From contig NZ_BIXZ01000011.1 of assembly GCF_005406125.1 (NCBI RefSeq), forward strand, positions 1-64,000: a stretch of 64,000 bases of DNA, written 5' to 3'. Shown here piece after piece: positions 5,004 to 22,850 of the stretch. Numbering within the stretch: the stretch's first letter is position 1; each line of letters starts with the position of its first letter. The translations under genes and the position numbers were made by a program. The DNA is from Haloarcula mannanilytica. Lineage in GTDB: Archaea; Halobacteriota; Halobacteria; Halobacteriales; Haloarculaceae. A model generated the notes under the pieces. It made no database searches. It was not told the origin of the DNA and worked only from the letters and a program-made list of their open reading frames with translations.

Positions 5004-6173
5004 ATGTCAAATAGATCTGGAAACCACGACGGGTCCGCGGAGTCACGCAGCGAGACACGGACCATAGACCGGCGGACGTTGCTCGCGTCGGGGTCTGCCA
5101 TCGTCGGTAGTACGATGCTAGCGGGCTGTAGCGGTGACGGTGGCGGAGGCGACGGCGGGGATACTGACAGTAGCGATGGCGGCGATAGCGACGGCGGCGG
5201 CAGCGAAACGACGAACATCGCAATCGTATCGAGCCCGGCGGGGTTCGACGACAACGCGTTCAACGACCTCGCGCTGGAGGGGCTCCAGACAGCCGCCGAG
5301 GAGTACGATATCTCCATTAATCAGGTCGAAGAGACCGAGCAGTCCCAGTACCAGTCCGTCCAGGCCGAACTCGCACAGAGCGGCGACTACGACCTCATCG
5401 TGCTGGTGTCGTACAACCACACGGAGGCGCTGTCCCAGAACGCGCCGGAGTACGACGACCAGTACTGGATGCTCATCAATGACCACGTCGACGAGCCGAA
5501 CGTGGCGGGGTACACCTGGGCGAACCACCAGATGTCCTACCTTGCGGGCGTGCTCGCAGGGACGATGACCACGGAGGAACTGTCCCACGACGACAGTTCG
5601 ACGACGCCGGACAGCGCTCAGGTCGGGTTCGTCGGCGGCGTCGACGGGTCGCTCATCAACGCGTTCGAGCGGTCCTACGTCGCCGGCGCGGAGTGGGTCA
5701 ACGAAAACGTCGACGTAAACGTCGGGTACATCGGCAACTACACCGACACCGACACCGCGGCCGACATCGCCAGTTCGCAGTACAACGACGGTGCGGACAT
5801 CGTCTATCACGCCGCGGCCGCTGCTGGCCGGGGCGTGTTCGAGGCCGCACAGGAGAACGGCCGCTTCGCTATCGGCGTCGACGCCGACCAGTCACAGACG
5901 CTCCCGGACTTCCAGGACGTGATTCTCGGCTCGGCGGTCAAGTATATCAACGAGGGGACCCGCGAGGTGGCCATCGGCGTCGCCGAGGACAACTGGTCGG
6001 AAGTCTCGGGCGCGAACACGCTGGGCCTCGAAGACGAGGCCGTCGACTGTGTCATCGGGCAGGCCTTCCAAGACCAACTGCCGGACGCCGTCGACCAGAA
6101 CATCTCAGAGGCCAAGCAGGCTATCATCGACGGCGATATCGAGGTGCCCTGTACCGCCGCCGGCTGTAACTAA
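5004..6173 (+). CDS. BMP-family nucleoside-binding lipoprotein
   Basis: This 389-residue protein is the binding component of a nucleoside-type ABC importer (Bmp/PnrA family). It has a Tat-type start (RRTLLASG, from residue 23), a lipobox with Cys42, and a long Gly/Asp/Ser linker before the domain. The mature part begins IAIVSSPAGFDDNAFNDLA, typical of the family's first strand and ligand loop, and the family's GFVGGVDG and GVDADQSQTLPD regions follow. It is the first of four genes encoding a complete importer. Confidence 0.9.
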   Translation: MSNRSGNHDGSAESRSETRTIDRRTLLASGSAIVGSTMLAGCSGDGGGGDGGDTDSSDGGDSDGGGSETTNIAIVSSPAGFDDNAFNDLALEGLQTAAEEYDISINQVEETEQSQYQSVQAELAQSGDYDLIVLVSYNHTEALSQNAPEYDDQYWMLINDHVDEPNVAGYTWANHQMSYLAGVLAGTMTTEELSHDDSSTTPDSAQVGFVGGVDGSLINAFERSYVAGAEWVNENVDVNVGYIGNYTDTDTAADIASSQYNDGADIVYHAAAAAGRGVFEAAQENGRFAIGVDADQSQTLPDFQDVILGSAVKYINEGTREVAIGVAEDNWSEVSGANTLGLEDEAVDCVIGQAFQDQLPDAVDQNISEAKQAIIDGDIEVPCTAAGCN

Positions 6174-6211
6174 TCACCCCTTCTCCCATCCGATGGCAAC
6201 TCATTATCACC

Positions 6212-7837
6212 ATGGCAGAGAGTGAGCAGGACGACGACCAGACGGTGCCGGATGTCCGACTGCGCGGGATAACCAAGCGGTTCGGCGATGTCGTTGCCAA
6301 CGACGGCGTCGACCTCACGCTCGAAAAGGGATCTGTCCACGCGCTGCTCGGGGAGAACGGGTCGGGCAAGACGACGCTGATGAGCGTCCTCTACGGCCTG
6401 TACGATCAGGACGACGGCGACATCTTCGTCCGCGGGGACCGCCAGGCGTTCGACTCGCCCCGGGACGCCATGGACGCCGGCATCGGCATGATACACCAGC
6501 ATTTCCAGTTGGTGGAGCCGATGACCGTCCTCCAGAACATCGTCCTCGGCCACGAACCGACCGAGCGCGGGCTGGTCGACATCGAAAGTGCCCGCGCGGA
6601 TGTCGAAGCGATAACCGAGCGTTACGGGTTCGACATCGACGAGTATCTCGACGTGCCCGTCCGGGACCTCGACGTGGGCGTTCAGCAGCGCGTCGAAATC
6701 GTCAAGAGCCTTTATCGGGGCGCTGAGATCCTGGTTCTGGACGAGCCCACGGCCGTCCTCACGCCCCAGGAAGTCGAGGGGCTGTTCGACGTGATGGCTG
6801 AACTGACGGCCTCGGGCCACTCGCTCATCTTCATCACGCACAAGCTCGACGAGGCGCTGACTGCCGCCGACGACATTACCGTGTTGCGCGATGGCGAGGT
6901 CGCCGGGACCGTCGACGCCGCCAACGCCACCGAACAGGAACTAGCCCGGCTGATGGTCGGCCGCGAGATAGATTTCGACCGGAAGCCACGCGAGACCGCC
7001 ATCGGCGACTCCGTCCTCGAAGTCACGGACCTGCATGTCAGCGGCGACCGGGGGCTCAAACAAGTCCGCGGCGTCGACTTTGCCGTCCGCGAGGGCGAGA
7101 TACTGGGGATTGCGGGCGTCCAGGGCAACGGCCAGACAGAACTGGTCGAGGCGCTGACCGGGCTTCGACCGGTCGAGTCGGGTACCGTCAGATTCGACGA
7201 CGAGGACATCACTGGGACGAGTCGCCGGGACCGCATCGAGAAGGGAATCGCCTACATCCCGGAGGATCGTCAGGAGGAGGGCATCGTGATGGACTACGAC
7301 CTGATACGGAACTCACTTTTGGGCTTCCAGACGACTGAACCGTACGTCGAACGGGGCGTCATTGACTGGGCCGCCGTCCGGGACCACGCCGAGGGCATCG
7401 TCGAGGAGTACGACGTACAACCGCCGGATGCGACGACGGAGGCAGCGTCGCTGTCGGGCGGCAACCAGCAGAAGTTCGTCGTCGGCAGAGAGATAGAACA
7501 CGAGCCGACGGTGATGGTCGCCTCCCACCCCACGCGGGGCGTGGATATCGGGTCGATAGAGTTCATCCACGACCGCCTGCTGGAACTGCGAGACGCCGGT
7601 CTCGCGGTGGCGTTCGTCTCCTCGAAGCTAGAAGAGATTCAGACGCTCTCGGACCGTATCGCCGTCATGTACGAGGGGGAGTTCGTCGATATCGTCGACC
7701 CCGAGGCCGTCACCGAGGAGGACATAGGCCTGCTGATGACAGGGGCTGCCCTCGACGGGTCGGCGGACCGACCGGCTGCCAAGGACGGTTGGAGCGACGG
7801 CGGGAGGCCGGCCAGTGACCGGGGTGATGAGTCGTGA
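6212..7837 (+). CDS. Nucleoside ABC transporter ATPase with two ABC domains (YufO/NupO type)
   Basis: A 541-residue fusion of two ABC domains, as in RbsA and YufO. The first has a canonical Walker A (GENGSGKT, residues 47-54), a signature of the form VGVQQRVEI and Walker B LVLDEP. The second has the usual degenerate Walker A (GVQGNGQTE) and a LSGGNQQKF signature, with HPTRGVDIG after its Walker B. It sits between the BMP-type binding protein and two permeases, and its stop overlaps the GTG start of the next gene. Confidence 0.93.
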   Translation: MAESEQDDDQTVPDVRLRGITKRFGDVVANDGVDLTLEKGSVHALLGENGSGKTTLMSVLYGLYDQDDGDIFVRGDRQAFDSPRDAMDAGIGMIHQHFQLVEPMTVLQNIVLGHEPTERGLVDIESARADVEAITERYGFDIDEYLDVPVRDLDVGVQQRVEIVKSLYRGAEILVLDEPTAVLTPQEVEGLFDVMAELTASGHSLIFITHKLDEALTAADDITVLRDGEVAGTVDAANATEQELARLMVGREIDFDRKPRETAIGDSVLEVTDLHVSGDRGLKQVRGVDFAVREGEILGIAGVQGNGQTELVEALTGLRPVESGTVRFDDEDITGTSRRDRIEKGIAYIPEDRQEEGIVMDYDLIRNSLLGFQTTEPYVERGVIDWAAVRDHAEGIVEEYDVQPPDATTEAASLSGGNQQKFVVGREIEHEPTVMVASHPTRGVDIGSIEFIHDRLLELRDAGLAVAFVSSKLEEIQTLSDRIAVMYEGEFVDIVDPEAVTEEDIGLLMTGAALDGSADRPAAKDGWSDGGRPASDRGDES

Positions 7838-8964
7838 GCGGTGCCGGCTCGAATCGGGCTCGCGCTCTTTTAGATCGGATCGCTGACCAGATGTTGAACG
7901 CCTCAGTCGGTGAACGCATCGCCATCGCGGCCGCGTCAACGACGCTGGCGATACTGATCGGCCTGCTGGTCGTCGCATTTGCGGGCTACGACCCGGCGCA
8001 GTTCCTCGGAAACGTCGTCGTCGGAGCGTTCGGAGACGCGAACGCGCTCGCACGGACGCTGAAGTTCACGACGCTGTTCATCCTGACGGGGGTCGCCGTC
8101 GCCATCGCGTTCCGGGCGGGCGTGTTCAACATCGGCGTCCAGGGCCAGTTCGTCGTCGGCGGATTTGCGACCGTCGTCGCCATTCTCCAGCTAGCGCCGT
8201 TTCTCCCGACGGGGGCCACCGGCGGCGTGTTGCTGATGCTCCTCGGGACCGTTGCGGGCGTCATCGCGGGCGGCGCATACGGCGCACTTCCGGGAATTTT
8301 GAAGGCCTACGGCGACGCCAACGAGATCGTCACGACCATCATGCTGAACTTCATCGCGACCGGCGTCGTCGGCTATCTCGTCGACGGGCCGTTCCGCGGC
8401 GAGGGCAACCGTGCGCCCAACACAGCACGAATACCCGAGTACGTCTCGCTCCCGCGAGTCGTCTTCGACGTGCCCGACTTCTCGGTCGTCGGCCTCGCGG
8501 TGACGCTTGCAGTCGTGGTCGGCATCGCGTGGGTGCTGGCACGAACGCGGTTTGGATACGATATGGTGACCAGCGGTCATCAGGTAGCCGCCGCGGCGTT
8601 CTCGGGGGTGAACGCCAAGCGGACCGTCGTCGCGACGATGACCCTCTCCGGGATGGTCGCCGGCGTCGCGGGCGCACTCTTTGCCATCATGATACAAGGC
8701 TACTACAGCGACCCCGCCGGTATCGGGACGTACGGGTTCGATGCCATCGCAGTGAGCTTGCTCGCAGCTAACAACCCACTCGGTGTCGTGCCCGCGGGCT
8801 TTCTCTTCGGCGCACTCGATTCGGCCGGGAGCCACATCCGGATCAACAGCGACGTGCCGGTCCAGCTGATCGACGGCATCATCGGTCTCGTCGTCCTGTT
8901 TGTCGCCGTGCCGGAACTGTTCCGCATGGCCGCCGAACGCACGGGGCTGGGTGGTGAGAACTGA
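7834..8964 (+). CDS. Nucleoside ABC transporter permease (YufP/NupP type)
   Basis: A 376-residue permease of the branched-chain/RbsC superfamily, with about ten hydrophobic helices. The family's characteristic NIGVQGQFVVGG and AFSGVNAKR segments are visible. The start is a GTG overlapping the TGA of the ATPase gene (GTGA), so translation is coupled. It pairs with the next gene to form the membrane channel. Confidence 0.92.
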   Translation: MSGAGSNRARALLDRIADQMLNASVGERIAIAAASTTLAILIGLLVVAFAGYDPAQFLGNVVVGAFGDANALARTLKFTTLFILTGVAVAIAFRAGVFNIGVQGQFVVGGFATVVAILQLAPFLPTGATGGVLLMLLGTVAGVIAGGAYGALPGILKAYGDANEIVTTIMLNFIATGVVGYLVDGPFRGEGNRAPNTARIPEYVSLPRVVFDVPDFSVVGLAVTLAVVVGIAWVLARTRFGYDMVTSGHQVAAAAFSGVNAKRTVVATMTLSGMVAGVAGALFAIMIQGYYSDPAGIGTYGFDAIAVSLLAANNPLGVVPAGFLFGALDSAGSHIRINSDVPVQLIDGIIGLVVLFVAVPELFRMAAERTGLGGEN

Positions 8965-10007
8965 TGGATCTCAGTGACCGCGGGACGCAACTACGGCTCG
9001 GAGCGGCAGTCGGGACAGTCCTGCTGGTGCTCGCAATCGCACTCGCGCGTGGCTGGCCGCTTGCGGATATCGTGACTGTCGGCTTCGTCGAACGGACGCT
9101 CCAGGCGGCGACGCCAATTGCGCTGGCGTCTATCGGCGGCCTCTATGCCGAGAAAAGCGGCGTGTTCAACATCGGCCTCGAAGGGTTCATGATATTCGGG
9201 GCGGCCAACACCGGCGCACTCGTGTGGATTATCGGCGGTGAGTCACCAACCCAGGCGGACCTGTGGGTAGCGATGGGACTCGCCGTCGCGCTCAGCATCG
9301 CCTACACGGTGCTGTTTGCCGTTTTGCTCATCCGGTACAAGGCCAATCAGATCGTTGCGGGGCTGGCCGTCTGGTTCATCGGGCTTGGGTTCGGCCCGTT
9401 CACGGCTGTCCTCGTCTGGGGGAACCGCAACAGTCCAGGACTGGTGAGTATGACCGACGTGACCGTGCCGGGCCTCGCCGAGATACCGGTCGTCGGCCCG
9501 GTCCTGTTCGACACGTCGCCGCTCGTGTTGCTCACGATACTCGTCGCGGTCGCGGCCTGGGTGTTCCTGTATCGGACCCGCTACGGCTACTGGCTACAGG
9601 CTGCCGGCGAGAACCCGGAAGCGCTGGACACCGCGGGTGTCAATGTCAACCGCGTCCGGTACGCAGCGGTGATTTTCTCGGGCGCGATGGCCGGGCTTGC
9701 CGGTGCCGTGTTGCTCGCTCACGCGGGGTCGTTCACGGGGACCGGCCAGACGATGGTCAACGGCCGCGGCTGGATCGGCATCGTCGCCTATCTGTTCGGG
9801 AACTACAACCCCCTCGGAGCGGCCGCCGCTGCGCTGCTTTTCGGCGGTCTCGATATGCTTCAGATTCAGTTCCAGACTGTCGGGATTCAGTTCCCGAACC
9901 GGCTCGTCAATCTGTTCCCCTATGCCGCTGTCGTCGTCGTGCTTACGGTCTGGAGTTCAACGCGGATGCCGTCGGCGCTGGGCGAGCCATACGAGAGTGA
10001 AGACTAA
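8964..10007 (+). CDS. Nucleoside ABC transporter permease (YufQ/NupQ type)
   Basis: A 347-residue permease, the second half of the channel. The motifs EKSGVFNIGLEGFM and AAGENPEALDTAGVNV are typical of this partner type. Its ATG shares one base with the TGA of the preceding permease gene (TGATG). No salvage enzyme (phosphorylase or deaminase) follows directly, so the exact nucleoside specificity is not indicated by context. Confidence 0.92.
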   Translation: MDLSDRGTQLRLGAAVGTVLLVLAIALARGWPLADIVTVGFVERTLQAATPIALASIGGLYAEKSGVFNIGLEGFMIFGAANTGALVWIIGGESPTQADLWVAMGLAVALSIAYTVLFAVLLIRYKANQIVAGLAVWFIGLGFGPFTAVLVWGNRNSPGLVSMTDVTVPGLAEIPVVGPVLFDTSPLVLLTILVAVAAWVFLYRTRYGYWLQAAGENPEALDTAGVNVNRVRYAAVIFSGAMAGLAGAVLLAHAGSFTGTGQTMVNGRGWIGIVAYLFGNYNPLGAAAAALLFGGLDMLQIQFQTVGIQFPNRLVNLFPYAAVVVVLTVWSSTRMPSALGEPYESED

Positions 10008-12937: not shown

Positions 12938-14143
12938 TTATTCGTCGACCCCGTCGGTGATAATCGTCGCAAGCTGATCGCGGTCGAACAGTTCCGCTTC
13001 GGTGAACTCCTCTGGGAAGTACCGCTTCGCGTACCGCTCAATCATGAAGAGATTGTGCAGCGGGCCGGTGTAGATCGGCCCGCCGCGAAACACCCGTTCA
13101 TTCTGAACTGCCGTCAGCTGGCTCCCCACTTCGTGGTCTTTCATGTACGCGAGGACGGATTTTTCGAACTCCTCGCGGGATTTCCCTTCGCGGTGATAGC
13201 GAAGCAGGAGTGAGTCCGGGTCGATCTCCAACAGCGTCTCATAGTCAAGCGACTCGGACCCGGAGTAGCCCTCGATTCCGGTGTCAGAGAACGCGTCGGA
13301 GATACCGAGGGTGTGGAAGTGCTCCTTGTTGGCCCCGTTCCCGCTGATGCGATACGGCGTGAACTCCTCCGGTTCCTCGCCGGCGAACATGAGCGCAGCG
13401 TTCGGTCGCTCATCCGGTGCCGGGAGACGGGACTGGACCGTCTCGACCATCTCGTCGTGGATCGAGCGGATCGCCTCGAAGCGGGCCTGTTCCTGCACCA
13501 CTTCGGCCACCTTCTCGAAGGCTTCGTACAGGCTGTAGTATCGGTAGTCGTGCCAGTCGTCGGTCCGTCGGAAGATGAGGTTGCCGAAAAACGGCGCGAC
13601 GTTTTCCCGGACTTCCGTGAGGTCCGACTGGTCCCACGCGCCGAGCCAGTCTATGAGTGCGTGTGGGTCAATGAGATGCAAGTCGGCGTCCATCTCGTAG
13701 AACGGCTCCTTCGAGACGCCGTCGTTCCAGAGCTGTGTGAGGTCGTCGAGGTCGATGGACACCCCATCGAGTTCCTCGTAGTGCAGCGTCTTGTACCGGC
13801 CGCGGTACCAGATCGACTGCACCGCGTCGCCGTGACCGAGCGCGACAAGCATGTCGATGTAATCAGCGGTGAACGGGGCGATTGTCTCGGGCACGGTGTC
13901 GAACTCGACAGTCCCGACCGGTTCCATCGTTACCGAATACGAGCCGTCAGAAGTCACAGCCTCGGTGTCAGTGGCGCTGGCCTCGGTGTCGGAATCAGCT
14001 TCGGTAGCGTCGGTTGTCTGGGACTGTTGACCGCTCTCGCCCGCACACCCAGCGAGCAAGCCACCACTGACGAGTGTTCCGGTGCCTTTCACGACTTCTC
14101 TCCGCGTCGGCCACTCGAACGTCTTCGTCTCCGGGTCGCTCAT
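12938..14143 (-). CDS. Iron-siderophore-type ABC substrate-binding lipoprotein, copy 4 of 4
   Basis: A 401-residue lipoprotein of the periplasmic-binding (PF01497-like) class. A Tat-type start (TRREVVKG) leads to a lipobox with Cys33 and a Thr/Ser/Glu-rich linker. Shared with its three upstream paralogues are SVTMEPVGTVEFDTVPE at the domain start, WHDYRYYSLYEAFEKVAEV in the middle, and LTAVQNERVFRGG near the end. It is the last gene of the operon; its ATG overlaps the TGA of the previous gene by four bases. No permease or ATPase follows: directly downstream is a transporter fragment. Confidence 0.88.
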   Translation of the reverse strand: MSDPETKTFEWPTRREVVKGTGTLVSGGLLAGCAGESGQQSQTTDATEADSDTEASATDTEAVTSDGSYSVTMEPVGTVEFDTVPETIAPFTADYIDMLVALGHGDAVQSIWYRGRYKTLHYEELDGVSIDLDDLTQLWNDGVSKEPFYEMDADLHLIDPHALIDWLGAWDQSDLTEVRENVAPFFGNLIFRRTDDWHDYRYYSLYEAFEKVAEVVQEQARFEAIRSIHDEMVETVQSRLPAPDERPNAALMFAGEEPEEFTPYRISGNGANKEHFHTLGISDAFSDTGIEGYSGSESLDYETLLEIDPDSLLLRYHREGKSREEFEKSVLAYMKDHEVGSQLTAVQNERVFRGGPIYTGPLHNLFMIERYAKRYFPEEFTEAELFDRDQLATIITDGVDE

Positions 14144-15330
14144 TCGAAATCACCCGTGACGATGTCGGCGACCCGCTGCCGGTCGAAGAGTTCCGTGTCG
14201 GCAGTCACCTCACCGAAGATGTCGGGATAGAGCTGTTTGGCCGCCCGTTCGGTCAAAAACAGGTTGTGGATCGGTCCCTGCCGGAGGTAGCCACCGCGGT
14301 AGACGCGTCCGTTCTGTACCGCAGTCAGTTGGCTGCCGACAGTGTGGTCCCGCATGAACTGCAGGACGGTCTCGCGGAACTCGGCCGCTGACTTCCGCTC
14401 GTGGCCGCGAACGAGAATAACGTCCGGATCGACTTCCAGAAGCGTCTCGTAGTCGTACTCGCCGCGGTTGGTCGTACTGAGGTTCTCGATATCGGTCCCG
14501 GCGAGCGCGTCAGTAACGCCGAGATCGCGCCATTGCTTCTTGCTCGTCCCGTTGTCGTTGAGTCGATAGGGGGAGAACGACTCCGGTTCGTCGGTCCCCT
14601 CGAAGGTCAGAAGGACGTTCGGGCGCTCCTCGGCCGGCGGGAGCTGACCCTGTAGCTCCGCGATGTAGTCGTCATGTAGCTGTTTGAACGCCTCGTATCG
14701 CTCCCGTTCTCGGAAGACTTCCGCGACTTTTTCGAAGGCCTGATACAGCGTGTAGTACCGGTAGTCGTGCCACTCGTCGGAGCGACGGAAGATCAGATTC
14801 CCGAGGAACGGGGCGACGTTCCCGGCGATTTCAGCTACGTCCGACTGAGACCAGTCGAACCAGTTGATGAGCATCTGTGGGTCATAGAGGTGCACGTCAC
14901 CGTCGAGTTCGTAGAACTCCTCTTTCGTTCGGACCTCCGGATTGGCCTCTATCGTCTCCTGATCGACGGTAACACCGGGGAGGTCGTCGTAGACGGACGT
15001 GTAGTAGCGGTCCCCACCCCCGATACCTGCGAGGCCGTCGGCCTGCCCGAGAGCCACGCCTATATCGGCGTAGCCGCCGCTGTAGGGAATCCATCGCTCG
15101 GGACCCGTCTGGAACGTAACCTCGCCCACCGGTTCCATCGTGACGGAGTACGATTCATCCTCGGTCGCCGATGGGGTCCCGGTTGTCGTCTCTGACTCGG
15201 TTGCGGTGGCGTCCGTGGCGGAATTGCTCGAACACCCGGCGAGCAAACTGCCGGCGACGATTGCCCCGCCGCCCGTGATGTAGTCTCTGCGTGTCGGTAG
15301 GCTCTCCGCCGTCCCGTTGGTGTCGTTCAT
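14140..15330 (-). CDS. Iron-siderophore-type ABC substrate-binding lipoprotein, copy 3 of 4
   Basis: A 396-residue paralogue with Tat-type start (TRRDYITG), lipobox Cys33 and the same domain landmarks (VTMEPVGEVTF, WHDYRYYTLYQAFEKVAEV, LTAVQNGRVYRGG). The ATG at 15330 is chosen because it makes a four-base ATGA overlap with the preceding gene and sits just before the signal peptide; the frame remains open for 34 more codons upstream, within the previous gene. Differences from the other copies in the ligand-facing half suggest a different ligand rather than a fresh duplication. Confidence 0.88.
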   Translation of the reverse strand: MNDTNGTAESLPTRRDYITGGGAIVAGSLLAGCSSNSATDATATESETTTGTPSATEDESYSVTMEPVGEVTFQTGPERWIPYSGGYADIGVALGQADGLAGIGGGDRYYTSVYDDLPGVTVDQETIEANPEVRTKEEFYELDGDVHLYDPQMLINWFDWSQSDVAEIAGNVAPFLGNLIFRRSDEWHDYRYYTLYQAFEKVAEVFRERERYEAFKQLHDDYIAELQGQLPPAEERPNVLLTFEGTDEPESFSPYRLNDNGTSKKQWRDLGVTDALAGTDIENLSTTNRGEYDYETLLEVDPDVILVRGHERKSAAEFRETVLQFMRDHTVGSQLTAVQNGRVYRGGYLRQGPIHNLFLTERAAKQLYPDIFGEVTADTELFDRQRVADIVTGDFE

Positions 15331-16559
15331 GCGTTCGCTCCGTTGATGATCTCCGCAAGCCGCTGTCGGTCGAATAGCTGTTCGTCGTTGGGAATCTCCG
15401 GTAACGGCTCGCCGTCGACGTAGCCCGGCCACTTGCCGAACTGCTCGGGATACAGCTGCTTTGCGGTCATCTCCAGGCCGAACAGCGTCATGATGGGACC
15501 CTGGTGCCAGGCAGCACCGGATGCGAACACGCGGTCGTTCTGCACCGCAGTAAGCTTCTGCCCGACAGGATGGTTCGAAATGGTCTCGCGTATCTCGGCG
15601 ACGTTTTGATACGATGTCGTTCCGGACATCACGAGCAGAACGTCGGGATCTGCTTCGGCAAGTCCCTCGTAATCCATGTCACCGATGGCGTTCTCCCAGT
15701 TCAGCCCAGCGAACGCGTCTTTCGGTTGTAGTGGCCAGATGTCGGCCCGCCAGATGCCCGGCTCACTCGTCCGGAAAGTCTGGAACGCTCCATCGAGATG
15801 CCAGACCCGTGCCACCGTTGGCCGGTTCTCTTCGGGCGGAAGTCCTGACTTGATCCGGTTCATCAACTCCTCGTGGACGGCCGCGATCTCTTGGTAGCGC
15901 TGTTGTTCCTGGAACACCGCGGCAATCTTCTCGGCCATCTCCCAGACGGTGTAATACTCGTAGCCGTCCCGGGTGCCCTCCGGCGGATCGACACGGCGGG
16001 TACTGTAGTAGTTCCCGAAGAAGGGCCCCAGATCCTGTGTAATATCCTCGATATCATCGCTGTTCCATCCGTCCTGACCGGCCAGCAATACGGGGTCGAT
16101 AAAATGGACATCAGCGTCTATCTCGTAGAATATCTCCTTGTCCGTCCCGTTCCCCGGGTTAGGGTCAGTCAACCTTTCCCAGTCGATTGAGACGCCGTCG
16201 AGTTGGTGGTAGTAGTTGTTCATCCCGGAACCGAACATCCCCGGCGCGTACAGGGACTGTAACGCGTCTCCGTGTCCGACCGCAATCGCCATATCGGCGT
16301 ACCACGGGTAGAAGCCCATCGCAGTCTCGGGAACAGAATCGAACTCTACCTCCCCCATCGGACTCATCGTGACCGTATACGACTGTTCAGTAGCGGTCTC
16401 CTGAGTTGTTCCGGATTGTGTCGTGCTGTCCGGTGACTGCGATGCCGATTCATCACCTGAACACCCGGCGAGGAGGCTGCCCCCGACAACTGCTCCCCCG
16501 TACTTCATGTAATCCCGTCGGGCCAATAGCTCGTACTGCCGGCGTTTGTCTGGAGTCAC
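15327..16559 (-). CDS. Iron-siderophore-type ABC substrate-binding lipoprotein, copy 2 of 4
   Basis: A 410-residue paralogue, starting with a GTG that shares one base with the TAG stop of copy 1. The twin-arginine motif (ARRDYMKYGG) and lipobox with Cys33 are clear. It keeps the family frame (YTVTMSPMGEVEFDSVPE, FFGNYY, LTAVQNDRVFASG) but is the most divergent in the middle: WHDYRYYSLYEAFEK becomes RDGYEYYTVWEMAEK, and it has an insertion near the C-terminus (KWPGYVDGEPLPEIPNDEQ). A distinct ligand is likely. Confidence 0.88.
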   Translation of the reverse strand: MTPDKRRQYELLARRDYMKYGGAVVGGSLLAGCSGDESASQSPDSTTQSGTTQETATEQSYTVTMSPMGEVEFDSVPETAMGFYPWYADMAIAVGHGDALQSLYAPGMFGSGMNNYYHQLDGVSIDWERLTDPNPGNGTDKEIFYEIDADVHFIDPVLLAGQDGWNSDDIEDITQDLGPFFGNYYSTRRVDPPEGTRDGYEYYTVWEMAEKIAAVFQEQQRYQEIAAVHEELMNRIKSGLPPEENRPTVARVWHLDGAFQTFRTSEPGIWRADIWPLQPKDAFAGLNWENAIGDMDYEGLAEADPDVLLVMSGTTSYQNVAEIRETISNHPVGQKLTAVQNDRVFASGAAWHQGPIMTLFGLEMTAKQLYPEQFGKWPGYVDGEPLPEIPNDEQLFDRQRLAEIINGANA

Positions 16560-17746
16560 TATTCAAACACCCCGTTAATTACATCGGCAATTCGTTGGTG
16601 GTCGAATAGCTGCTCGCTCCTCTCTTGCAGTGTCTCAATCCCGTTCCATGCGCCAAACCGGTCAGGATAGAACTGCTTCGCCACAACCTCCGTCTGGAGG
16701 AGGTTAATGATTGGACCCTGATAGGATGTACCGCCCCGGTAGAGTCGATCATTTTGCACCGCAGTTAGCTGCTTCCCGATGGGATGGGAGCGTAACACGT
16801 CCATCCGTTCCTCGAACTCGGCCGTAGAGAGGTCCGAGAAGCCATACGGAAAGACCAGAATATCGGGATCAGCCTCCAGTAGCTGTTCGTAGTCCCAGCG
16901 GGCGTGCCTCCCATCTATGTGAGACCTGAATCCGTCGATAACCCCGAGATCTTGATACTGCTTCTTTCCGTTCCCGCGTCCGATGGGATACGCATCCAGC
17001 GCCCCCTGTTCGAAGTCCGAGAACGCCGATATGAGCCCAATCTCTGGCCGGTGCTCCTGTGCTGGGAGGGTCGACTGGATGTCGGAAATGAAGTCATCGT
17101 GGACGGCTTTAATCGCCTCGTATCTGTCTCGCTCCTGAAAGACATCCGCAATTTTTTCGAAGGCATCGTACAGCGAGTAATACTGATAGTCGTGCCAGTC
17201 CTCTCCGTGGCGTCGAATGTAATTCCCGATGATTGGTCCAACATTCGTAGCGATTTCGTCGAACGCTTCGGTCGAGATACTGTCGTGTTTCAGACTGACA
17301 AAGTTCGGGTCGAGCAGGTGGACATCCGCATCGACCTCGTAGAACACCTCCTTGTCGAACCGCGTGTCGTAGAGCTGCTGTACGTCGTCGAAAGACACGT
17401 CAACCTCTGGGAGACTATCGTAGAACTGGACCGGCCAACTATCTCGATAAACAAGTGCCTGCAGTCTATCGAGTTGGCCCAGCGCGATTCCCATATCACC
17501 ATACGTGCTATAGTATGCCATCCACGTCTCGGGAACAGAATCGAACTCGACATCGCCGGCCGGTGCCATTGTCACCGTGTAGGATGTGTTTTCCGGAGTC
17601 GTCGTCTCGGTTGCAGTCGAGGGGGGCGTTGTATTCGAACCCTCACCGGAACAGCCGCTGAGCAGTCCACCACCGATGACTGCTCCGCCGTATTTCATGT
17701 AGTCCCGTCGTGTTGGTGACTCCTGATTCATGTCATTGTTAGACAT
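16559..17746 (-). CDS. Iron-siderophore-type ABC substrate-binding lipoprotein, copy 1 of 4 (operon leader)
   Basis: A 395-residue lipoprotein, first gene of the four-gene operon. It has a Tat-type start (TRRDYMKYGG), lipobox Cys32 and the shared landmarks YTVTMAPAGDVEFDSVPE, WHDYQYYSLYDAFEKIADV and LTAVQNDRLYRGG. A TATA box 25 bases upstream makes the message leaderless, and two DtxR-type boxes flank that TATA box, so expression should rise under iron (or manganese) limitation. Domain class and metal boxes agree on ferric-siderophore capture; the actual ligand is unknown. Confidence 0.9.
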   Translation of the reverse strand: MSNNDMNQESPTRRDYMKYGGAVIGGGLLSGCSGEGSNTTPPSTATETTTPENTSYTVTMAPAGDVEFDSVPETWMAYYSTYGDMGIALGQLDRLQALVYRDSWPVQFYDSLPEVDVSFDDVQQLYDTRFDKEVFYEVDADVHLLDPNFVSLKHDSISTEAFDEIATNVGPIIGNYIRRHGEDWHDYQYYSLYDAFEKIADVFQERDRYEAIKAVHDDFISDIQSTLPAQEHRPEIGLISAFSDFEQGALDAYPIGRGNGKKQYQDLGVIDGFRSHIDGRHARWDYEQLLEADPDILVFPYGFSDLSTAEFEERMDVLRSHPIGKQLTAVQNDRLYRGGTSYQGPIINLLQTEVVAKQFYPDRFGAWNGIETLQERSEQLFDHQRIADVINGVFE

Positions 17747-17751
17747 AATAA

Positions 17752-17765
17752 TTAGGCTGACCTAA
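17752..17765. promoter_or_regulatory. DtxR/Idr-type metal box 1 of the siderophore-binding operon
   Basis: TTAGGCTGACCTAA, a near-perfect palindrome of the DtxR-family operator type, lies between the TATA box (17768-17775) and the start codon (17746). A repressor bound here would cover the transcription start point. Confidence 0.75.
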
Positions 17766-17767
17766 AA

Positions 17768-17775
17768 TTATTTAA
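17768..17775 (-). promoter_or_regulatory. TATA box of the siderophore-binding operon
   Basis: Minus-strand TTAAATAA, centred 25-26 bases before the ATG at 17746, the spacing for a leaderless archaeal transcript. It is bracketed by the two metal boxes. Confidence 0.65.
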
Positions 17776-17787
17776 CTGCTTCGGATT

Positions 17788-17801
17788 TTAGGCGCGCCTG
17801 A
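17788..17801. promoter_or_regulatory. DtxR/Idr-type metal box 2 of the siderophore-binding operon
   Basis: TTAGGCGCGCCTGA within a longer dyad (TTTTAGGCGCGCCTGAAAA, 17786-17804), immediately upstream of the BRE/TATA region. With box 1 it brackets the basal promoter. It also overlaps the stop that bounds the transporter-like remnant at 17792. Confidence 0.65.
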
Positions 17802-18958: not shown

Positions 18959-20455
18959 ATGTCAGGACACAACTCAACTACGTCGGTTGGATCACTCCCG
19001 GACACGACGGCGGAGTCACCGCTCGTGCCCGCTGTACTCACGTGGCTCGTGTGGTCGATGTTGGCCGCGAGCATCGCTGTGCTTGCTGTCCGAGTCCGAA
19101 CAGGGTTCGCGTGGGATGTACCCGGTGTGATCGCAATCGATGGGCTGACTGTCCTGATGTGGGTGGTCGTCACCTTCTTCAGCGGTATCGTTCACAGCTA
19201 CTCTCGCCGCTACATGGCGGGCAGTCGCGTCAAAACGACCTTTTTCATCACCGTGTTCGGCTTCACGGTGGTCGTGATGGGGCTCGTGGCGGCCGACCAC
19301 CTCGCCCTGTTCGGGCTGCTGTGGTTGTCCATGGGGCTGTTGATGGCGAAGCTCATCGGTATCATCAGCGGCTGGGACCAGGCACAGGCCGCCGCGGCGG
19401 TCGCCCGCACGTACTTCCTCGGCAGTAGCGCGCTCCTCGGCATCGGACTGACAGCGCTGTGGTGGACAACCGGTGCGACAACGGTTTCCGGCGTCGCCGC
19501 GGCCGCCGACACGCTCAGTGGGCCGGTGTGGCTGGTCGCCGCTGGCGCGCTCGTACTCGCGGCAATGATCCAGTCGGCCCTGATTCCGTTCCATAGCTGG
19601 CTCCTCTCATCGATGACCGCACCGACGCCCGCCTCGGCCCTGATGCACGCCGGGTTCGTCAACGCCGGGGGCATCCTGCTGACCCGCTTCGCACCGGTCA
19701 TCACTGTCGACTCGACGCTCATGCTCGCAGTCGTCGCCGTCGGTGGAGCCAGCGCCATCGGCGGGAAGCTCCTGAAGTCGGTCCAGACGGACATCAAGGG
19801 CAAACTCGGCTGCTCGACGGTCGGCCAGATGGGCTTTATGATCATGCAGGCGGGCCTCGGATTTTTCGGGGCCGCTATCACCCACCTCATCCTGCATGGC
19901 TTCTACAAAGCCTATCAGTTCCTCAGCGCGGGCGGACAGGTCGAACACACCGCGCCGAATGAACAGACACCACACACTGTGGGGCGCTTGCAGAGCGTCG
20001 TCGGTCTCGTCGTGACGCTGCTGACCGGCCTGGCCGGCGGTGCGCTGTTCGCAACGCTGACCGGAAAAGGTCTAAAGGTCGACGCCGGGCTCTTGCTGAC
20101 CTTCTTCGTGGTCTTTACCACGCTCCATGCGGCTCGTGACGCGGTCCAACACACGTCGCTTTCGACGGCGGTCCGGTACGGGGCCGTTCCGCTGGTTTTC
20201 TTCCCAGCGATCACCGTCTACGCCGTCGTGTACGAGGCGATATCCGGGCTCCTATCGGAGCTCCCGATGGTGACGGCACCGACCGAGCTGACCCTGCTCC
20301 ACGCCGCCATCGCGGTCGCCTTCGCCGGTATCTACATCGGAATCGAGACCGGGATTCACGAGCGCAGCCAGCGCCTCTATGTAGCGCTTTTGAACGCCGG
20401 TCAGCCGGCAGCCGACACTGTACTGACTACAACGGAGGACTACAATGAGTACTGA
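18959..20455 (+). CDS. dabB: DabB: NuoL/MrpA-like proton-conducting subunit of the inorganic-carbon accumulation complex
   Basis: A 498-residue membrane protein with about 13 hydrophobic helices, belonging to the NuoL/Mrp antiporter-like (proton_antipo_M) family. The family core is clear: SGIVHSYSRRYM, the lysine/histidine-containing helix with IPFHSWLLSSMTAPTPASALMHAG, and KLLKSVQTDIKGKLGCSTVGQMGFM. It overlaps the DabA gene by 11 bases and no other complex I genes are present. The pairing identifies it as DabB, which in bacteria couples cation flow to CO2 hydration by DabA. Confidence 0.9.
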   Translation: MSGHNSTTSVGSLPDTTAESPLVPAVLTWLVWSMLAASIAVLAVRVRTGFAWDVPGVIAIDGLTVLMWVVVTFFSGIVHSYSRRYMAGSRVKTTFFITVFGFTVVVMGLVAADHLALFGLLWLSMGLLMAKLIGIISGWDQAQAAAAVARTYFLGSSALLGIGLTALWWTTGATTVSGVAAAADTLSGPVWLVAAGALVLAAMIQSALIPFHSWLLSSMTAPTPASALMHAGFVNAGGILLTRFAPVITVDSTLMLAVVAVGGASAIGGKLLKSVQTDIKGKLGCSTVGQMGFMIMQAGLGFFGAAITHLILHGFYKAYQFLSAGGQVEHTAPNEQTPHTVGRLQSVVGLVVTLLTGLAGGALFATLTGKGLKVDAGLLLTFFVVFTTLHAARDAVQHTSLSTAVRYGAVPLVFFPAITVYAVVYEAISGLLSELPMVTAPTELTLLHAAIAVAFAGIYIGIETGIHERSQRLYVALLNAGQPAADTVLTTTEDYNEY

Positions 20456-22850
20456 ACCCGCCATCCACGATAGTATCGACACCGCAGCGACCACCGTCGG
20501 CTCTCTCTGGCCGATCCACTCGTTCGTGACAGCGAACCCACTTGCGGGATTCGAGGATCGGCCGTTCAGTGAAGCGATCACGCAGGCAGCCGACTTGCTG
20601 GGTGGCCGTGGCTACCCCAGTGCCGAGACGTTCCGTGCGGCGCTGAAGCGTGGTCAGATTGACCCGGAGGTCCTCGACACCGAGCTCTCCGAACTTGACT
20701 ACGAAGAGGACCCCGAGGTACTGCTCGACCACATGGCCAACGCGACCGACGCCACGGAAGGCGATTCCGAGTCTGCGACGGACCGCGTCGACAAGGTGCT
20801 GACGAAGTGGCTGTCGGCGTTCCTCGACGAAGGGAGCGCCCACTGGTCGATGCCGAACCGCGAGTCGGGATTCTACACCGCCTTCCGCGGTGTGGCCGAA
20901 CACGACAGCGAAATCCCCGAAAGGGGGGTCCTCACTGACCTGTCTGCGTCACCGACCGAGACCATCGAGGCAGTGCTTGCACCGTACCCGGAGAGCCAGT
21001 GGGAATCTATTTTCGAGGCGGAACTGGCCGCGCTCCCCGGCTGGACGGGCCTCATCAAGCAGCGTGCCGATTCCGGGGGCGAGTGGCAGTCGGCGTACCC
21101 GATTTCACTATCGGGGTATCTCGCGGCGCGGCTGGCACTGCTGGATGCCGTCGACGCGGACATCACCCCCTCGAAAGACAGCATCGACCCGGAGCCGACC
21201 GCCGAACTCGCCGGGGCGTTCCTGCGTGCCTGGGAAGCGACCTACCGCGGTGACCTCGTCGAGAACGTCGCCGCGGAGAGTCAGTCGCTGGCCGACAGCG
21301 ACAGTTCAGGTCGCCCGGACGCGCAGTTGGTCTTCTGTATCGACACCCGCTCGGAGATCATCCGCCGCCACATCGAGGCGACGGGCGACTACGAGACCCA
21401 CGGGTACGCCGGCTTCTTCGGCATCCCGATGGAGTACCAGGGGTACGACGCCGACGTGTCGGTCGACGCATGCCCGCCGATCCTCGACCCCCAGCACCAC
21501 GTCACCGACGTTCCGACCGACGACGAGACCCAGGCGAGCCACGACCGCTGGTCGAGCATCCGTGAGACGGCCGACGAAATCATCGAGACGCTAGAGGCCA
21601 ACGCCGCCACGGCCTACGGCTTCGTCGAGACCGCCGGAAGCGGCTACAGCCTCGCGCTCGCGGCCCGCACACTCGTCCCCGGCCGCGTGTCCGACCTGTT
21701 TGCCGCGGCTGATGACCACGTGCCCGACGAACACGAGTTCTGTGAGCCACTCGTCCACCACCAGCATACCTACACCGGCGACCTGCCGGTGGGACTGACC
21801 ACTGAGGAGAAAGTCGAGTACGCCGCCATCGCATTCGATCTGATGGGCTGGGAGGAGTTCAGTCGCCTCGTCGTCTTCACCGGACACGCCAGCGAGACGG
21901 CCAACAACCCCTACGACGCGAGCCTCGACTGCGGTGCCTGTGCTGGCAACCCCGGCGGCCCGAACGCCCGCGTGCTCGCAAAGATCTGTAACGAGGAGAC
22001 CGTCAGGGCCGAACTCCGCGACCGCGGCTTCGAGATTCCCGAGGACACCGTCTTCCTCGCCGGCGAACACAACACGACGACCGACGACATCGAACTGTAC
22101 GACGGCGACGTGCCCAAAAGTCACGCCGACGACCTTGCGCAGTTGCGCGCTGACCTCGCCACCGCCCGCGAGAACGCGGCTGCCGAGCGCACAGAATCGA
22201 TGGGAGTCGACGATACCGCGGCGGTCAGCGAGACGGAGCGCCGTGCTGCTGACTGGGCCGAGACCCGCCCGGAGTGGGGGCTGGCCGGCAACGCCGGCTT
22301 CGTCGTCGGCCCCCGTGAACTGACGAGCGACCTCGACCTCGACGGCCGCGCGTTCCTCCACTCGTATGACTGGTCGACCGACCCCGACGGTGACGCGCTC
22401 GAAGCGATACTCACCGGTCCGATGGTCGTCACCCAGTGGATCAACACCCAGTACTACTTCTCGACGGTCGACAACGCTGTCTACGGGAGCGGGTCGAAAG
22501 TGACCCACAACCCCGTCGGCAACATCGGCGTCTACCAGGGCAACGGCGGCGATTTGATGACCGGCCTCCCGTTGCAGTCGCTCATGGCTGCCGACGACGA
22601 GCCGTACCACCAGCCGCTCCGCCTCTCGACGGTCATCCACGCGCCGGTCGAACGTGTCACAGAGGTGCTCGCTGCCAACGAGGAACTGGCAGAACTTCTC
22701 GACAACAACTGGCTCTCGCTGACAGTCGTCGACCCGACGCAGGACCACAGCGCGTTCCAGTACGAGCGCGACTTGGAGTGGTCGCCCATGTCCGAGTTGG
22801 CCGAAGCCAACACAGTGTCACCGACGGCTCCAGCGGTTGCAGACGATTAA
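20445..22850 (+). CDS. dabA: DabA: beta-carbonic-anhydrase-like subunit (DUF2309) of the inorganic-carbon accumulation complex
   Basis: An 801-residue cytoplasmic-side partner of DabB. The zinc-site residues known for bacterial DabA are present with the right spacing: Cys298 and Asp300 in VFCIDTRSE, His481 in VFTGHAS and Cys496 in LDCGACAGNPGG (His-Cys distance 15, as in the Halothiobacillus protein). The Arg after Asp300 is also kept. In the established model the subunit hydrates CO2 to bicarbonate one-way, driven by DabB. The start overlaps dabB. The protein is typical in length and looks functional. Confidence 0.93.
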   Translation: MSTEPAIHDSIDTAATTVGSLWPIHSFVTANPLAGFEDRPFSEAITQAADLLGGRGYPSAETFRAALKRGQIDPEVLDTELSELDYEEDPEVLLDHMANATDATEGDSESATDRVDKVLTKWLSAFLDEGSAHWSMPNRESGFYTAFRGVAEHDSEIPERGVLTDLSASPTETIEAVLAPYPESQWESIFEAELAALPGWTGLIKQRADSGGEWQSAYPISLSGYLAARLALLDAVDADITPSKDSIDPEPTAELAGAFLRAWEATYRGDLVENVAAESQSLADSDSSGRPDAQLVFCIDTRSEIIRRHIEATGDYETHGYAGFFGIPMEYQGYDADVSVDACPPILDPQHHVTDVPTDDETQASHDRWSSIRETADEIIETLEANAATAYGFVETAGSGYSLALAARTLVPGRVSDLFAAADDHVPDEHEFCEPLVHHQHTYTGDLPVGLTTEEKVEYAAIAFDLMGWEEFSRLVVFTGHASETANNPYDASLDCGACAGNPGGPNARVLAKICNEETVRAELRDRGFEIPEDTVFLAGEHNTTTDDIELYDGDVPKSHADDLAQLRADLATARENAAAERTESMGVDDTAAVSETERRAADWAETRPEWGLAGNAGFVVGPRELTSDLDLDGRAFLHSYDWSTDPDGDALEAILTGPMVVTQWINTQYYFSTVDNAVYGSGSKVTHNPVGNIGVYQGNGGDLMTGLPLQSLMAADDEPYHQPLRLSTVIHAPVERVTEVLAANEELAELLDNNWLSLTVVDPTQDHSAFQYERDLEWSPMSELAEANTVSPTAPAVADD

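Follow-up and report, generated by a model that had tools for sequence, protein, structure and literature searches.

A Permease-Free, Metal-Box-Controlled Operon of Four Siderophore-Type Receptors in Haloarcula mannanilytica

We found that four consecutive genes of Haloarcula mannanilytica, designated S1 to S4, form a genuine, conserved, metal-box-controlled operon of siderophore-type receptors (12938-17746, minus strand). They very probably encode iron-repressed ferric-siderophore receptors that feed shared FecCD importers in trans. The window analyzed, a stretch of 64,000 nucleotides, comprises bases 1-64000 of the 79-kb contig C11, and the H. mannanilytica genome (4.2 Mb) is 99.97% complete.

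Gene content, conservation and predicted fold of the operon

S1 (16559-17746; 395 aa), the first gene of the operon, encodes a PF01497 protein with the features of a Tat-type lipoprotein and of a class III siderophore-type binding protein. It is followed, on the same minus strand, by three further genes for PF01497 binding lipoproteins: S2 (15327-16559; 410 aa, GTG start), S3 (14140-15330; 396 aa) and S4 (12938-14143; 401 aa). The consecutive overlaps are 1 base between S1 and S2, 4 bases between S2 and S3 and 4 bases between S3 and S4. The 430-aa open reading frame of S3 was over-extended, and its start was placed at the ATG that gives 396 aa. All four proteins matched PF01497 (Peripla_BP_2) above the Pfam cut-off, with E values of 1.4e-15 to 2.6e-7 and scores of 30.8-57.8 bits versus the curated cut-off of 27.5. 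In NCBIfam, no family scored above its own cut-off, and the models for an F420-0 transporter and for EitA gave weak matches. Each of the four proteins carries an RR motif together with a lipobox whose last residues are AGC or SGC, and the RR and the G-C are invariant across the 17 paralogs of this genome. The preliminary description of four overlapping binding-lipoprotein genes of 395-410 residues, each with a Tat lipobox, was thus confirmed. It had also listed three blocks as shared by all four proteins. VTM.P.G.V.F and LTAVQN.R are indeed present in S1, S2, S3 and S4, but DYRYYSLY.AFEK is kept only in S1, S3 and S4 and has diverged in S2 (GYEYYTVWEMAEK). The pairwise identity among S1-S4 is 38-50%, which makes it plausible, as far as sequence divergence can tell, that the four receptors bind different ligands. 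This identity range and the presence of syntenic orthologs in independent genomes rule out that the genes are assembly duplicates, an artifact that the preliminary description had named as an objection.

At least seven other Haloarcula have a syntenic operon, likewise without a permease, that encodes two or three receptors. Three receptors (one a2-like, S3 and S4) are present at the locus in G005, G006, G009, G012, G016 and H. argentinensis, and two are present in G003. Seven other Haloarcula have an S3 ortholog at this locus and six an S4 ortholog, and a metal box is present there in every relative examined. The locus is flanked by fructosamine-kinase-like and MarR-like genes on one side and by Lrp, DabB and DabA on the other. 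In H. mannanilytica the operon begins with an additional gene, S1, that the relatives' operon does not have, and S2 comes from another clade than their first gene. Comparison with the relatives gave dN/dS values of 0.09-0.12 for S3 and 0.06-0.08 for S4, which indicates purifying selection on these two genes and an operon that is not decaying. The adjoining DabB/DabA pair (18959-22850, plus strand), an inorganic-carbon transporter, is itself conserved at this position across Haloarcula.

S3 is predicted to adopt a class III binding-protein fold. Its AlphaFold model (pLDDT 87.6) contains two lobes joined by a long helix (209-229), and the top structure matches listed were the iron/siderophore class III proteins CeuE, YfiY with Fe-schizokinen, HtsA, PiaA and YiuA. 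The TM-scores by target length were 0.58-0.75 with rmsd values of 5-8 Å, so the lobe orientation of S3 may differ from that of the solved structures. The match of the model to YfiY with Fe-schizokinen would fit the presence of IucA/IucC genes in the genome. We infer that siderophores are the ligands of S1-S4.

Promoter, metal boxes and regulon

A metal-repressor box (TTAGGTCAGCCTAA; 17752-17765, minus strand) that matches TTAGGN4CCTAA ends 5 nt before the ATG of S1. Exactly 36 nt upstream of it lies a second box with one mismatch (TCAGGCGCGCCTAA; 17788-17801, minus strand), and box pairs 36 nt apart also occur at the related loci L033, L068, L069 and L074. The interval between the S1 boxes contains a TATA-like element (TTAAATAA; 17768-17775, minus strand). 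Its position, 22-29 nt upstream of the ATG, would be that expected of a leaderless haloarchaeal promoter. S1-S4 are probably co-transcribed from this one promoter.

The pattern TTAGGN4CCTAA has 30 exact matches genome-wide versus 1 for the control, which was the same pattern reversed. Across many haloarchaea, the spacing from box to start is 3-7 nt in 55 of 59 box-bearing receptor genes. Boxes precede 11 binding-protein operons in the H. mannanilytica genome, and they also front a reductase-FecCD-ATPase operon (C6:86684) and a siderophore-synthesis operon with IucA/IucC and a PLP decarboxylase (C12:10688). A DtxR-family gene is located 230 nt from a box pair on contig C3. Judged by the palindromic box that it has in common with the FecCD and IucA/C operons, the S1-S4 operon probably belongs to the haloarchaeal FerR/DtxR-type metal regulon. 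Iron would be the signal that acts at the S1-S4 boxes.

Elsewhere in the window, a perfect box (2941-2954) overlaps the start of a gene for an NMT1-like ABC binding lipoprotein (1896-2963), which suggests a second metal-regulated transporter.

Importers encoded elsewhere and alternative explanations

No FecCD permease or ATPase was found adjoining S1-S4. The five strong FecCD genes of the genome lie on contigs C1, C3, C6, C14 and C20, none of them on the 79-kb contig C11, and no FecCD gene was found at the syntenic locus in seven Haloarcula relatives. The absence of an adjoining importer, noted in the preliminary description, therefore holds for the whole contig and for the relatives, and the operon is not a complete FecBCDE/FhuBCD-type importer. 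The ABC genes at 300-2963 and 5004-10007 were considered as partner permeases and rejected, as they belong to NMT1-type and Bmp/PnrA-type systems, respectively.

The preliminary description had proposed a search of the genome for permeases and ATPases with the same box, and this search led to the operon on contig C6. The gene order there is reductase, FecCD, ATPase, MsbA-type ABC protein, box and four receptors. S1 shares 61% identity with the third receptor in this permease-linked array, and S2 is related to C6c (48%) and to C6a2 (45%), the latter being the second receptor of the array. Because the array holds relatives of both S1 and S2, the C6 importer would be the likeliest partner, and these shared receptor clades point to its permease as the one that S1-S4 may use. 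The FecCD protein of C1 belongs to a distant, BtuC-like branch, and those of C3, C6, C14 and C20 are siderophore-type by similarity; a receptor from one separate clade accompanies each of the C3, C14 and C20 permeases. Since the genome has four siderophore-type permeases, the partner of S1-S4 is not fixed.

Against these four siderophore-type FecCD genes, the genome encodes 17 complete receptor paralogs and three fragments, and the 17 are a minimum because the receptor family probably breaks the assembly at contig edges. Further receptor genes lie at such edges (L061 on C21, 1-288; L062 on C24, 1-288; L036 on C18, 5954-6559), and two of the three have a box directly in front.

Such an excess of receptors could also be read as a gene-dosage array, in which the receptors use a common permease and are largely redundant, with differences in expression or affinity but not in ligand. 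We regard this reading as unlikely. The probable co-transcription of the four genes and their conserved blocks are in keeping with it, but their low identity, their spread over different clades older than the genus and the purifying selection on S3 and S4 argue against redundancy. The clades of S1 and S2 differ from that of the relatives' first gene, moreover, which indicates that different receptors were swapped in.

The docking residues and the distribution of the family bear on a further reading, which builds on the second of the two offered in the preliminary description: that the four lipoproteins serve extracellular capture or storage (iron buffering, sensing or denying siderophores to competitors) with no hand-over to an importer. 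Glu-Arg docking has been reported for BtuF, FecB, FhuD2 and FeuA (PMC3741162). Both docking glutamates are kept in S1 (Glu133 and Glu287), S2 (Glu142 and Glu298), S3 (Glu137 and Glu295) and S4 (Glu146 and Glu302), and family-wide they are kept in 106 of 107 and 107 of 107 members. On the permease side, the counterpart of BtuC Arg56 in the C6 permease is Arg116, and every FecCD protein examined has this arginine. Because such docking residues are a feature of the family as a whole, the glutamates of S1-S4 show only that docking could occur. In addition, relatives of each receptor adjoin FecCD genes: S1-type receptors in the C6 array of H. mannanilytica itself and at L049 and L073, the S2 group at L047 and L052, S3-type receptors at L073, L079 and L082, and S4-type receptors at L048.

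We then compared the receptor family with C6-type permeases in 292 haloarchaeal-class genomes, each at least 90% complete. Both were present in 225 genomes and neither in 66, and no genome had the permease only. G218, which has two receptors and no C6-type permease at the threshold used, was the lone genome with receptors only. Fisher's exact test gave p = 2e-65, a value that is indicative only and overstates the significance because related genomes are not independent observations. The capture reading draws on the lack of a permease and ATPase in the operon and at the syntenic locus of seven relatives. The retained glutamates, the single exception among the 226 receptor-bearing genomes and the FecCD-linked relatives of each receptor all speak against it, and we find it quite improbable. 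In contrast, the other reading that had been offered, several lipoproteins feeding one shared permease encoded elsewhere, is well supported by the shared box, the C6 paralogs, the co-occurrence and the docking residues on both sides.

Receptors outnumber permeases in at least 195 of the 225 genomes, with equal numbers in 30 and fewer receptors in none among the matches listed. At least six receptors accompany a single permease in 31 genomes, and receptors exceed permeases in 16 of the 16 sampled genomes of Haloarcula. Larger arrays than S1-S4 exist: Halarchaeum nitratireducens (L087) has at least seven receptors in a row, with FecCD absent from the stretch fetched, whose start cuts the array, and Natrinema versiforme (L073) has eight tandem receptors directly 3' of the FecCD and ATPase genes. 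A thioredoxin-reductase-like flavoprotein is encoded in or beside receptor or FecCD operons of many haloarchaea (e.g. L027, 4775-5770) and is a candidate for the reductive release of iron from the siderophore.

The transporter debris that had been noted downstream of S4 proved to be a frame-broken remnant of an MFS permease gene of the sugar-porter type (PF00083; 12745-12930, minus strand), of which the C-terminal part is left, and not a piece of FecCD. At least six relatives carry an unbroken 459-aa version of the gene at this position, immediately after S4 or S3, and in some relatives an extra UspA-like gene separates it from the receptors. It was rejected as an essential partner, and S1-S4 are probably independent of it, since it has been lost here with all four receptors intact. 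That the operon is a relic that once worked with this MFS secondary transporter is extremely improbable: the MFS gene, a broken remnant here, does occur intact next to the operon in relatives, immediately downstream and in the same orientation, but none of the four receptor genes is broken, dN/dS is low for S3 and S4, the promoter box is perfect, a UspA-like gene intervenes in some relatives, and PF00083 is not a siderophore family.

We therefore return to import through shared FecCD permeases, for which we propose the following mechanism. S1-S4 would be exported by the Tat pathway and fixed at the cell surface by a lipid anchor, as class III binding proteins for ferric-siderophore-type ligands. 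One promoter would drive all four genes, and a DtxR-family repressor of the FerR type would occupy the two boxes on either side of the TATA element and transcription start, shutting the promoter when iron is plentiful. When iron is scarce, each receptor would bind its own ligand or an overlapping set of ligands, many of them probably made by other microbes. Each receptor would then dock via its two conserved glutamates onto a FecCD permease-ATPase encoded elsewhere, most likely that of the C6 reductase-FecCD-ATPase operon, which has the same box and four receptors of its own.

A broader proposal, to which we give about even chances, is that the receptors constitute a modular library: over a dozen interchangeable receptors, repressed by iron and differing in their siderophores, would be served by one or a few FecCD importers, and their genes would be gained, and exchanged between permease-linked and permease-free arrays. 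The addition of S1 and the swap of S2 relative to the syntenic operon of the relatives would be an example of such exchange.

Comparison with known systems

Binding-protein-dependent importers are usually drawn with one receptor per permease. Haloarchaea appear to use a strong many-to-one scheme of receptors to permease for iron. This scheme is directly testable in Haloarcula relatives with one siderophore-type permease and at least six receptors, and such tests would also show which foreign siderophores are used in brines.

Haloferax volcanii has 11 FhuD proteins and two paralogous permeases, with a FerR signal before every fhu operon; under iron starvation several FhuDs are upregulated 4- to 8-fold, five of them more than 4-fold (PMC11349517). 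As in H. mannanilytica, siderophore-type binding proteins outnumber permeases and a metal-regulator signal lies upstream. Unlike the FhuDs of H. volcanii, however, the four receptors described here share a single operon that lacks a permease, and the genome as a whole encodes more receptors (17 complete plus fragments versus 4 permeases).

In Staphylococcus aureus, FhuD1 and FhuD2 are lipoprotein receptors of one Fhu system that bind different hydroxamates with different affinities, and some species have up to three FhuD2 homologs (PMC12709192). This system resembles the one proposed for S1-S4 in having multiple lipoprotein receptors per import system. It differs in being bacterial and in having few receptors, and no four-gene receptor operon was found in its description.

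A further likeness is to the permease-linked haloarchaeal arrays, such as those of C6 and of N. versiforme (L073), which have the same receptor subfamilies, the box and tandem overlapping genes; in contrast to these arrays, S1-S4 lack adjoining FecCD and ATPase genes. The principle of several receptors for one importer is thus known in Haloferax and Staphylococcus, and what stands out here is that four receptor genes form an operon without a permease and that receptors are in such large excess.
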